64,000 nucleotides of DNA, from positions 682,001 through 746,000 of the forward strand of contig NZ_JAGSYI010000002.1 of the NCBI RefSeq assembly GCF_025685625.1. The letters run 5' to 3'. Shown here one piece after another: positions 1,731-44,080 of this stretch (positions are counted from its first letter, which is position 1; each line of letters opens with the position of its first letter). Source of the DNA: Acidicapsa acidisoli. Lineage in GTDB: Bacteria; Acidobacteriota; Terriglobia; Terriglobales; Acidobacteriaceae. Both the position numbers and the translations under genes were made by a program. The notes beneath the pieces were generated by a model that saw only the letters and a list, made by a program, of their open reading frames with translations, had not been told where the DNA came from and ran no database searches.

Positions 1731-1806
1731 GAGCACGTAGCTCAGTTGGTAGAGCAACGCACTTTTAATGCGTGGGTCCTGGGTTCGACTCCCAGCGTGC
1801 TCACCA
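1731..1806 (+). tRNA. tRNA-Lys (anticodon UUU)
   Basis: The cloverleaf can be folded by eye. The acceptor stem GAGCACG pairs with CGTGCTC at 1796-1802. The D arm is GCTC/GAGC with loop AGTTGGTA. The anticodon arm is ACGCA/TGCGT with loop CTTTTAA, giving anticodon TTT. The T arm is CTGGG/CCCAG with loop TTCGACT. The discriminator is A1803 and the CCA tail is encoded at 1804-1806. It reads AAA and AAG lysine codons. No duplicate of its 3' end is visible downstream, so there is no sign that it serves as an integration site here. Confidence 0.97.
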
Positions 1807-20589: not shown

Positions 20590-20920
20590 GGTTTGCGGCG
20601 CTTACGGGGGCAGATTTGGGGCTGACTTCTGGTTTTCAGGTTGCATTCGAATGATAGAGAAGATCGCGGGCGGATGCGAATTGGAGTCTGGTCAGTTTGA
20701 GAAAGGCAAGCCCTCAGGGGCTAAAGCCCCTTGATATTGCATGGCTTAATGTACGGGCTAAAGCCCGTACCCTTCAATCTCAAGTCCATCCCCTCCACGC
20801 TGAAGCCCTGCCCTTCAAACTGACCCACTACTCGAATTGGTGTGCCGTAGGAGAAAAAAAAAACCGGTCAATCTTCAGGGTGGGGGTAGGGGGTACCTTG
20901 TTTTTGTTGTATCTGTTTCA
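20590..20920. other. Intergenic region upstream of mntR holding repeat copy A
   Basis: About 330 bases that contain the double-hairpin repeat at 20712-20777 and a partial echo of it (CTGAAGCCCTGCCCTTCAA) near 20800-20819. The rest has a short run of A residues and a G-rich patch near 20880-20892. No gene is supported. The frame that crosses the repeat is an artefact of the repeat. Confidence 0.5.
20712..20777. repeat. Double-hairpin dispersed repeat, copy A
   Basis: The element has a fixed architecture. CCTCA is followed by hairpin 1, GGGGCTAAAGCCCC (20717-20730). A variable spacer of about 20 bases leads to hairpin 2, GTACGGGCTAAAGCCCGTAC (20751-20770), and the tail is CCTTCAA. Copies with the same layout occur at 39078, 42574 and 44015. 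It is intergenic here. It is too short to encode a transposase and is either a palindromic non-autonomous element or an RNA-level structure. Confidence 0.85.
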
Positions 20921-39077: not shown

Positions 39078-39141
39078 CCTCAGGGGCTAAAGCCCTCTTG
39101 ATTTCTGTGGTCTGATGTGCGGGCTGAAGCCCGTACCCTTC
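39078..39141. repeat. Double-hairpin dispersed repeat, copy B
   Basis: Same layout as copy A: CCTCA, GGGGCTAAAGCCC (with one degenerated base), a 20-base spacer and GTGCGGGCTGAAGCCCGTAC, tail CCTTC. The spacer sequence differs from the other copies. On the minus strand the frame is open and gives [21 protein letters not shown], almost the same peptide as the copy inside the gene at 42574. Confidence 0.8.
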
Positions 39142-41971: not shown

Positions 41972-43057
41972 TCAAAAGCAAACAGGATCGAGTGGCTCGT
42001 CCTGGCTGGCGAGGTAGAGACGGTTGGCGAGCAGGTTCGGTTTGGAGACGAGTGCGCGTTCGGCGGCGAGGCGGGCCAGCTCGGGCAGATTGTTGCTTTC
42101 GGACAGATGGGCGAGGATCAGGTAGGTCGCCGTGCCGTCGTATGTCTCTTCGAGGAACGCGGAGGCGGCGGCGTTGGAGAGATGGCCGACGCGGGACAGC
42201 ACACGCTGCTTGACTGACCATGGGTACGGCCCGTCGCGGAGCATTTCGAGGTCGTGGTTGGACTCGAGCATGATGAGGTCGCAGCGGCGGAGCTGGGCCT
42301 GGACGTTGGGCGGCATGTAGCCGAGGTCGGTGGCGATGGCGAGGCGGATACCTTCGGCGGTGAAGACGAACCCGACGGGGTCGGCGGCGTCATGAGGGAT
42401 GGTGAAGGGGCTGATGCTGAGGTCGCCGATGGAGAAGGTTTCGCCGGGGCGGAAGTAGGAGACGCTGGGAAGATGGGCGGGATTAGGTTTTGGCGCCTCG
42501 GTGACTGTTTCCGACGGCGGATTCAGGTCGGCGCAGGCTTGAAGAGCGATTTCCTGGGCAGGGGACAAGCTTACCTCGGGGGCTAAAGCCCCGGTCGTTG
42601 CATGGGTGTTATGTACGGGCTGAAGCCCGTACCCTTCAGCGGATAGGTTTATTTCGCCGTTCGTAGCGCTATGGCTTGGTTCAGATAGGATATTTGCGGC
42701 TTCGGCGGCCTGCTTTTGTTCGCGGTATTGCTGGGCCCATTCGGCGTAGGTAATGCGTTTTTGTGGGGTTACCTGGCGAACCCAGGCGCGATGGGTGGCT
42801 TCGGTGAAGTAGACGGGGATGCCGAGCTTGCGGGCGGTGACGGCGAGGCCGTTGATGTGGTCCTGGTGCTCGTGGGTGACGAGGATGGCGTCGAGGGTGC
42901 TGGGGTCTTCGCCGACCTGCTTCATGCGGCGGAATAGCTCGCGGCAACTGAGTCCCGCGTCTACGAGAACACGTGTGGAACCGCCCGTGCCGGGGGTGCA
43001 GGAGACGATCGAGCTGTTCCCTTTTGAGCCCGAGGCGAGGACGGTGAAACGCACCAT
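41972..43057 (-). CDS. Metallo-beta-lactamase-fold hydrolase (YycJ/WalJ-like) with repeat-encoded insert
   Basis: This 361-residue hydrolase has the motif THEHQDH at residues 61-67, preceded by VLASGSKGNSSIV and followed by metal-site residues in IPHDAADPVGF, AIATDLGY and LESNHD. The family is the YycJ/WalJ type exonuclease-like hydrolases, about 260-270 residues long. The extra ~100 residues lie between the core strands at about residues 105-205. Within this insert, residues 140-162 (AEGYGLQPVHNTHATTGALAP) are encoded by a copy of the double-hairpin repeat. All catalytic residues are intact, so the inserted protein may still work. Reading continues in frame through the repeat. Confidence 0.9.
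   Translation of the reverse strand: MVRFTVLASGSKGNSSIVSCTPGTGGSTRVLVDAGLSCRELFRRMKQVGEDPSTLDAILVTHEHQDHINGLAVTARKLGIPVYFTEATHRAWVRQVTPQKRITYAEWAQQYREQKQAAEAANILSEPSHSATNGEINLSAEGYGLQPVHNTHATTGALAPEVSLSPAQEIALQACADLNPPSETVTEAPKPNPAHLPSVSYFRPGETFSIGDLSISPFTIPHDAADPVGFVFTAEGIRLAIATDLGYMPPNVQAQLRRCDLIMLESNHDLEMLRDGPYPWSVKQRVLSRVGHLSNAAASAFLEETYDGTATYLILAHLSESNNLPELARLAAERALVSKPNLLANRLYLASQDEPLDPVCF
42574..42638. repeat. Double-hairpin dispersed repeat, copy C, inside a gene
   Basis: The copy (CCTCG, GGGGCTAAAGCCCC-like hairpin, spacer, GTACGGGCTGAAGCCCGTAC, tail CCTTCA) lies wholly inside the YycJ/WalJ-like CDS. In its frame on the minus strand the repeat has no stop. Hairpin 2 carries GCTGAAGCC (CTT CAG on the other strand) where copy A has GCTAAAGCC, which would make a TAG stop in this frame. 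Confidence 0.88.
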
Positions 43058-43134: not shown

Positions 43135-43986
43135 TTAATAGGTGTAAAAGCCGCGGCCGGATTTGCGGCCCAGCCAGCCTGCGTCGACCATGCGAACGAG
43201 GAGCGGGCAGGGGCGGTATTTGGGGTCGCCGAGGCCTTGATGCAAGACGCGAAGAATGTCGACGCAGACGTCGAGGCCGATGAAATCCGCAAGGGTGAGT
43301 GGCCCCATGGGGTGAGCCATGCCTAGTTGGAAGACCTGATCGACGGCTTCGGCGGTTGCGATGCCTTCCATGACGGTGAAGGCGGCTTCGTTGATAAGCG
43401 GCATGAGAACGCGATTGGAAACGAAGCCGGGGGAATCGTTGACTTCGATGGGTGTTTTGCCGAGACGAACGGCTAGATCGCGAACGGTTTCGAAGGTGGT
43501 TTGGCTGGTTTGCAGGCCGTGAATGATTTCGACGAGGGCCATGACTGGGACGGGGTTGAAGAAGTGCATCCCGATGACCTGCGTGGGCCGGTTTGTCTGG
43601 GCGGCTAGTTTGGTGATGGAGATGGAACTGGTGTTGGTGGCGAGGATTGCGGACGGCGGGAGGATTGTGTCGAGGGAACGGAATAGCTCGGACTTGATTT
43701 CGAGGCGCTCGCTCGCGGCTTCGATTGCGAATTCGGCTTGGGAGAGCTGGTCGCGGTCGGTGATGAGGTGAATGCGGGCAGCGGCGGCTTCGACTTCGTC
43801 AGAGGTGAGCTTGCCTTTGGCGGCTTCCCTGCCGAGGTTGGTGCGTATGCGGGCTAGAGATTTGTCGAGGAGGGTTTGGTCGATGTCACAGAGGAGGACA
43901 GCAAAACCGGAGCGGGCGAAGATGTGGGCGATGCCGCCGCCCATGGTGCCTGCGCCGATTATGGCTACTGTTTGGATGGGGGACAT
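43135..43986 (-). CDS. 3-hydroxybutyryl-CoA dehydrogenase
   Basis: This 283-residue enzyme has the Rossmann start VAIIGAGTMGGGIAHIFARSGFAVLLCDID, then ATNTSSISIT, GMHFFNPVPVMALVEIIHG holding the catalytic His, and DSPGFVSNRVLMPLINEA with MAHPMGPLTLADFIGLDVCVDIL in the C-terminal domain. It interconverts acetoacetyl-CoA and 3-hydroxybutyryl-CoA with NAD(P)H, in fatty-acid or butyrate/polyhydroxyalkanoate metabolism. The length is typical. A paralogue lacking the C-terminal domain is at 14891-15448. Beta-oxidation partner genes are not adjacent. Confidence 0.94.
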   Translation of the reverse strand: MSPIQTVAIIGAGTMGGGIAHIFARSGFAVLLCDIDQTLLDKSLARIRTNLGREAAKGKLTSDEVEAAAARIHLITDRDQLSQAEFAIEAASERLEIKSELFRSLDTILPPSAILATNTSSISITKLAAQTNRPTQVIGMHFFNPVPVMALVEIIHGLQTSQTTFETVRDLAVRLGKTPIEVNDSPGFVSNRVLMPLINEAAFTVMEGIATAEAVDQVFQLGMAHPMGPLTLADFIGLDVCVDILRVLHQGLGDPKYRPCPLLVRMVDAGWLGRKSGRGFYTY

Positions 43987-44014: not shown

Positions 44015-44080
44015 CCTCAGGGGCTAAAGCCCCGATTCGCAGCAGTTGCTAATGTACGGGCTGAAGCCCGTACCCTTCAA
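44015..44080. repeat. Double-hairpin dispersed repeat, copy D
   Basis: CCTCA, GGGGCTAAAGCCCC (44020-44033), a 20-base spacer, then GTACGGGCTGAAGCCCGTAC, tail CCTTCAA. It lies in the 197-base gap between the 3-hydroxybutyryl-CoA dehydrogenase and PP2C genes, 29 bases upstream of the dehydrogenase start. The frame corresponding to copy C meets a stop here. Confidence 0.85.

Follow-up and report, generated by a model that had tools for sequence, protein, structure and literature searches.

The window, the whole 64-kb stretch of DNA analysed here, contains on its reverse strand a gene for a 361-residue metallo-beta-lactamase (MBL)-fold hydrolase, and within this gene lies copy C of a palindromic repeat, antisense to the coding strand (Table 1). 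The first half of the protein matches Pfam Lactamase_B (2.1e-12) and the second half Lactamase_B_2 (1.9e-24); none of the NCBIfam models reached its cut-off. An HxHxDH motif and the MBL fold are both present, as concluded from Pfam, alignment and structure model, and the solved folds nearest to the model include RNase Z. We take the protein to be YycJ/WalJ-like. WalJ is a DNA exonuclease acting in mismatch repair (PMC4801191, in the part of the article consulted).

The structure model has a mean pLDDT of 80, with 175 of 361 residues at 90 or above. Invariant columns in an alignment of 31 sequences include H62, H64, D66, H67, H222, D244 and H317, which presumably are the catalytic residues of the fold, and they flank the insert on both sides. 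No invariant column is found between W107, the last before the linker, and L196, the first after it, and Pro-193 is the single nearly invariant position of the linker. Residues 140-164 are modelled as coil with pLDDT below 50, between a helix (104-124) and a strand (199-201); another weak region is located at about residues 271-300. The first-pass annotation had proposed that key residues are intact on either side of a variable linker, and both the invariant columns and the low model confidence agree with this. The codon score, which was trained on 34 window ORFs and is used for ranking only (ORFs below 5, 8 or 10, depending on the scan, were not listed), falls to 0.11-0.19 in the linker versus 0.33 and 0.42 to either side, and it is low also in the linker parts outside copy C.

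On the gene strand, copy C reads EGYGLQPVHNTHATTGALAPE; its first base is in phase 0, at codon 141, and its last within codon 162. A palindromic repeat in frame within the CDS had been claimed before, and this is what we find; the translated span, given then as residues 140-162, is in frame but corresponds to codons 141-162, and the 21 letters printed for it are residues 140-160. Folded as single-stranded DNA, copy C is only modestly stable relative to shuffles (z -1.48; 22 of 200 equal or better). Three further 64-nt copies in the window can be matched to it in register. With copy B as the reference, identities are 78% for A, 80% for C and 73% for D, and the feet of the window copies are CCTC and GAAG. 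Against 0.10 expected, the window has 8 occurrences of the string GGGCTNNAGCCC, and none of 100 shuffles has more than one. Read in the register of copy C, copies A and D contain a stop and B and C are open, just as the first-pass annotation had it. A tRNA gene at window positions 1731-1803 is the sole Rfam match above gathering in the 64-kb window.

Table 1. Features of the MBL locus, window copies of the repeat, and R1 element pairs around RAYT genes of relatives
Feature	Position	Strand	Basis
CDS, MBL-fold hydrolase, 361 aa, ATG start	41972..43057	-	ORF, Pfam, structure model
Conserved HEHQDH motif, residues 62-67, ahead of insert	42857..42874	-	alignment
Hypervariable linker carrying copy C, residues 108-195	42473..42736	-	alignment, model
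Copy C, REPIN-like element, 64 nt, antisense to gene, codons 141-162	42574..42637	+	copy comparison; R1 75.9 bits (copy C itself among the 55 model-building copies)
Hairpin 1 of copy C, GGGGGCTAAAGCCCC	42578..42592	+	palindrome search; DNA fold
Hairpin 2 of copy C, TACGGGCTGAAGCCCGTA, then CCCTTC foot (opposite strand GAAGGG)	42614..42631	+	palindrome search; DNA fold
H317, invariant, past insert, frame unchanged	42107..42109	-	alignment
Copy A; covered by a 119-aa TTG ORF alone, below the codon-score cut-off	20712..20775	+	
Copy B; covered by a 61-aa TTG ORF alone	39078..39141	+	
Copy D; covered by a 115-aa plus-strand ORF overlapping the opposite gene 43135-43986	44015..44078	+	
R1 pair around G011 RAYT	L076 1494-1557 and 2000-2063	- and +	
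R1 pair around G002 RAYT	L142 1282-1345 and 1788-1851	- and +	
R1 pair around G026 RAYT	L315 1296-1359 and 1810-1871	- and +	

The repeat family and its RAYT association

Exact two-hairpin matches number 31 in the host genome (G000), with none for a reversed-pattern control, and they were found in 6 of 61 genomes, the host and 60 relatives (G000 31, G002 7, G006 4, G011 8, G012 2, G026 14). A covariance model built from 55 copies, R1, was searched against 20 genomes at an E threshold of 0.01, up to 150 candidates being scored in each. It has matches in 14 of them, the other six being without any among the matches listed: there are at least 75 in the 7.1-Mb host genome, 86 in G026, 66 in G001, 51 in G006 and 49 in G010, at least 41 and 37 in two congeners of the host (G002 and G011), at least 16 in G004, and from at least 1 to at least 12 in six other genomes. 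The elements are 63-66 nt long, with nearly invariant ends and a variable spacer in the 55-sequence alignment, the conserved arms in 54 of its 55 rows being favoured by the exact-arm search pattern. The two arms have GGGCT..AGCCC in common, but their stems and feet differ. In sister subtypes arm 1 is kept and arm 2 is altered, as in GGCACGGCT.AAGCCGTGCC and stems ending CCTACC (GGTAGG on the opposite strand) in G001, and in GGCACGACT.AAGTCGTGCC in G010 and the genomes of loci L208 and L213.

In G011, G002 and G026, the conserved domain of a REP-associated tyrosine transposase (RAYT) is flanked on both sides by inverted R1 elements, and the corresponding proteins (L076, L142, L315) score 104 to 105 against the 80-bit cut-off of NCBIfam NF047646 (REP_Tyr_transpos). 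Their reading frames (L142:1353-1868, L076:1297-1992, L315:1255-1803) extend into the downstream REPIN, which is the source of C-terminal residues; in G002 and G011 the REPIN-derived C-terminus is FPQGLKP...VRAEARTL. The host has four Pfam Y1_Tnp loci and a fifth RAYT, located by protein search, that is 49% identical to the one in G002. Two host RAYT loci, L062 and L324, are above the NCBIfam cut-off and have variant repeats adjoining or within them; an exact-subtype pair beside a RAYT was not seen in G000.

We compared the family to other repeat systems. REPINs are paired short palindromes with conserved ends, a variable spacer and a dedicated RAYT nearby (Bertels and Rainey 2011, PMC3116915, sections consulted). 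Our elements likewise are palindrome doublets with conserved ends, a variable spacer and near-uniform spacing, they are mostly extragenic, and RAYTs flanked by the same repeats occur in three relatives. In REPINs the two palindromes are inverted copies of a single REP; our elements may depart from this, a common REP origin of the nearly constant arm 1 and the subtype-dependent arm 2 not being plain to see. Intragenic REPs of the GTAG and CGTC superfamilies, encoding 20-30 aa, have been described in other phyla (Di Nocera et al. 2013, PMC3733652; all statements on this article refer to the parts covered). More than half of them are in dimers or groups, many lie in DNA synthesis and repair genes, the recB genes of two Xanthomonas carry a REP at about the same site, and neutrality in flexible linkers or loops was suggested. 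Our in-gene copies share with them the short palindromes, the position in loops or linkers and, as far as the small numbers go, a lean to DNA-maintenance targets. The window copies have GAAG rather than the GTAG of GTAG REPs at the foot, although the G001 subtype does carry GGTAGG, and they differ from CGTC REPs by their CCTC and GAAG feet and by the RAYT association in relatives.

The first-pass annotation had likened copy C to Rickettsia palindromic elements, which are about 150 bp long and lie in frame within genes as translational fusions (PMC10969869, as far as the article was covered). The likeness stands as an analogy of behaviour, namely the in-frame position in protein genes; compared by description rather than by sequence, the Rickettsia elements are longer than our 64 nt. 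Intragenic RPE-4 and RPE-6 have been placed among the CGTC repeats, which are without a transposase (PMC3733652). With its RAYT pairing in relatives, the present element is REPIN-like and belongs with the REP/REPIN-RAYT elements; its presence in some species and absence from others would fit transposition.

Copies within genes

We scanned 20 orthologue loci of the MBL gene, part of 30 fetched, with R1 and without filters, and found an in-gene match in the host only, with none at the 19 other loci. Among 80 further loci, partly from the same genomes, two (L208 and L213) have a sister element in the gene, in sense orientation. Its arm 2, dispersed in their own genomes with 38 and 17 exact copies, is absent from G000. 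The sister element sits in the same linker, so that two sister families have entered one linker, in different lineages. The best-scoring relative, G004 (76% identity), has a linker of 91 aa (L032) versus 95 in the window gene, without the element. An empty site for copy C could not be drawn, because linker residues 108-195 are too variable to align and none of the orthologues can be aligned directly at both edges of the element; the check proposed in the first-pass annotation, orthologues lacking the peptide but matching on either side of it, therefore fails for the MBL gene. A degenerate REPIN is located about 40 bp past the 3' end of the MBL gene in G011 (L161:7018-7081) and G002 (L203:7003-7066). 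In the G022 linker (L035/L184), a 10-bp-stem palindrome is present as a tandem pair, one copy being perfect, and the L196 linker has a similar single hairpin. We considered the G022 palindrome as a second mobile element; the exact pattern occurs at one place in G022 and is absent from four other genomes, and we thus take it as a local duplication.

Other genes holding the repeat in frame, for which the first-pass annotation had proposed to search, include rarA, an lhr-like helicase and one more long gene. The rarA segment with the element comprises 70 aa in G002 and 92 aa in G011 versus 44-50 aa in 14 other sequences (16 of 27 loci parsed; rarA match in 36 of 37 genomes), a gain of 21 and 43 aa over the 49-aa segment of the host. 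The proteins match Pfam MgsA_C and AAA, and AAA_assoc_2 is stretched or split in the two carriers. Between the two species the element differs by 4 non-synonymous and 2 synonymous codons, which fits a neutral drift of the peptide as read from its codons. In G011 rarA (L084/L090), about 20 extra residues (QQAGYAQQTGYDQQ) with a short internal repeat directly precede the element.

The lhr-like helicase has a linker with an R1 match between its WH3 and WH4 domains (loci L240-L243), of 93 aa in G000, 82 in G001 and 108 in G010 versus 42-52 aa in ten others (14 of 15 sequences parsed). The R1 scores are 75, 56 and 34 bits, respectively; the 82-aa linker of G004 gives a marginal match of 14 bits (E 0.08) and is a possible relic. 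Stems differ among the three clear copies (TAC/GTA, CCG/CGG and AGG/CCT), and the right boundary is shared. Either a single old insertion was converted later on, or the site was hit more than once. In the long gene of G006 (L077), which has no Pfam or NCBIfam match and which we assume to encode a glucosidase-like enzyme, the segment with the element is 58 aa long; in the six other sequences (7 of 10 were parsed) it measures 32-52 aa. The 52-aa sequence is that of G002, in whose gene R1 finds no match, and part of the length difference thus has another source. Copies in open frame but outside the domain models were found in the C-terminal tail of a PBP2 (L025) and at the N-terminus of a xerC-like gene (L137), both probable targets by their sequence; translation of the xerC-like gene could also begin only past the element. 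Five of the six target genes carry the main subtype in antisense orientation, a number too small to call.

By ORF, codon score and Pfam, 7 of 88 distinct copies lie within genes and represent six events, copies in RAYT 3' ends (L076, L142, L315) being left out of the seven. The 88 copies with flanks comprise 53 from G000, 11 from G002, 16 from G011, 6 from G006 and 2 from G012, and omit three repeats as well as L139, L158 and L159, which the mismatch finder missed and R1 detects. In G000, 4 of the 53 distinct copies were placed within genes; 22 of the 75 listed R1 matches of this genome are outside the 53. None of six G026 copies read is within a counted gene, and for 49 copies in 40 more stretches (37 from G026, 3 from G001) the covering ORFs that score above 10 number three, all lacking a Pfam match. 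Covering ORFs without such a match were not counted as genes, a rule by which a real gene outside the Pfam families would be missed; this applies to L019, L066, L085, L023 and the minus strand of L068, and to L128, L135, L144, L154, L155, L347, L357 and L383. Two others were set aside: on the plus strand of L068 the copy precedes a HypA domain, and in L130 (DUF374) the ORF starts within the element. Ahead of the HypA domain, the G006 frame L068:1215-1949 (+) has several tandem REP-like peptides, which may precede the true start.

Of the 324 frames in 54 copies, 94 are open; taking the chance of a suitable length as one in three, we expect about 10% of random in-gene hits to be readable. On the assumption of 87% coding sequence, and with every readable hit surviving, about 39% of surviving copies would lie in genes. 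The 4 of 53 observed is far less, and thus most readable hits probably are also removed, or genes are avoided. We think that insertion is blind to frame and that mostly readable copies in loops survive, the latter part being judged from readable copies only.

Origin of the in-gene copy

Very probably, copy C is a RAYT-type REPIN-like element that represents a tolerated, readable insertion in a flexible linker. A non-autonomous mobile element of two hairpins and 64 nt, from a family that would be moved by RAYT-type HUH transposases, probably inserted antisense into the segment encoding the linker of the MBL-fold enzyme. With the frame kept and no stop added, the conserved residues would be retained and about 21-22 element-encoded residues gained, which may be tolerated rather than beneficial. 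The case for insertion is built on the membership in a dispersed family, on the orthologues without the element and on the cleaner cases in other genes. Points against the reading are the empty site that could not be drawn, the linker of similar length without the element in G004, host RAYTs seen with variant repeats and without an exact-subtype pair, the only modestly stable DNA fold of copy C and the second weak region of the structure model.

The similar length of some orthologue linkers (L032, 91 versus 95 aa) would also be expected if the peptide were ancestral in the MBL protein and resembled the intergenic repeats by convergence. We regard this as highly improbable, as the match takes in both palindromes over the full 64 nt (75.9 bits, copy C being in the training set), copy C matches the other window copies directly, and the 19 other loci lack an in-gene match even with filters off; the two in-gene loci found elsewhere belong to a different subtype in opposite orientation. 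A decaying or misassembled ORF broken by the element would account for the drop in codon score, but the drop extends over the linker beyond the element, and a single open frame connects conserved residues on both sides, making this reading barely conceivable. It is also rather improbable that the element has been domesticated, with its peptide or an mRNA hairpin altering the enzyme or its expression and being kept for it. The lhr-like element persisting in three species, perhaps with a relic in a fourth, and the lean of the target genes to DNA maintenance, as in PMC3733652, argue for such a role; against it, the codon differences in rarA make no peptide constraint evident, the linker around copy C is modelled with low confidence and the G004 lhr-like copy is at best a relic.

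Tolerated insertion thus remains our preferred reading of copy C. The persistent lhr-like slot and the DNA-maintenance targets together leave room for more than neutral tolerance. A different stem in each of three species at the lhr-like slot, and two sister families in the MBL linker, raise the speculative and on balance unlikely idea that in-frame REPIN slots in genome-maintenance genes stay live and are refilled or converted by the resident RAYT; DNA-maintenance genes might be preferred, and turnover could tune repair.

In-frame REPs have been known in other phyla since 2013 (PMC3733652), and in the parts covered that article mentions Acidobacteria just for transposases of the TIRYT group. 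For Acidobacteria, our search of the open-licence literature yielded no account of in-frame elements, most subscription papers and preprints being outside its scope. New here are orthologue-controlled cases in Acidobacteria, the orthologues without the insert adding to the 2013 study, in which a short mobile element has been turned into protein sequence. Counting across genomes could now separate chance, target choice and selection. Among the six target genes, rarA, the lhr-like helicase, the probable xerC-like gene and perhaps the MBL gene serve DNA maintenance, which, for a different set of genes, is in line with what was remarked in 2013 on replication and repair genes (PMC3733652). With DNA maintenance assumed to make up 4% of genes, binomial probabilities are 0.0012 for three of six and 3.6e-5 for four of six, and with 6% they are 0.0038 and 1.8e-4, for a category chosen post hoc and with two of the six genes probable only; these figures give a hint, and only a hint, of a DNA-maintenance bias of the targets.
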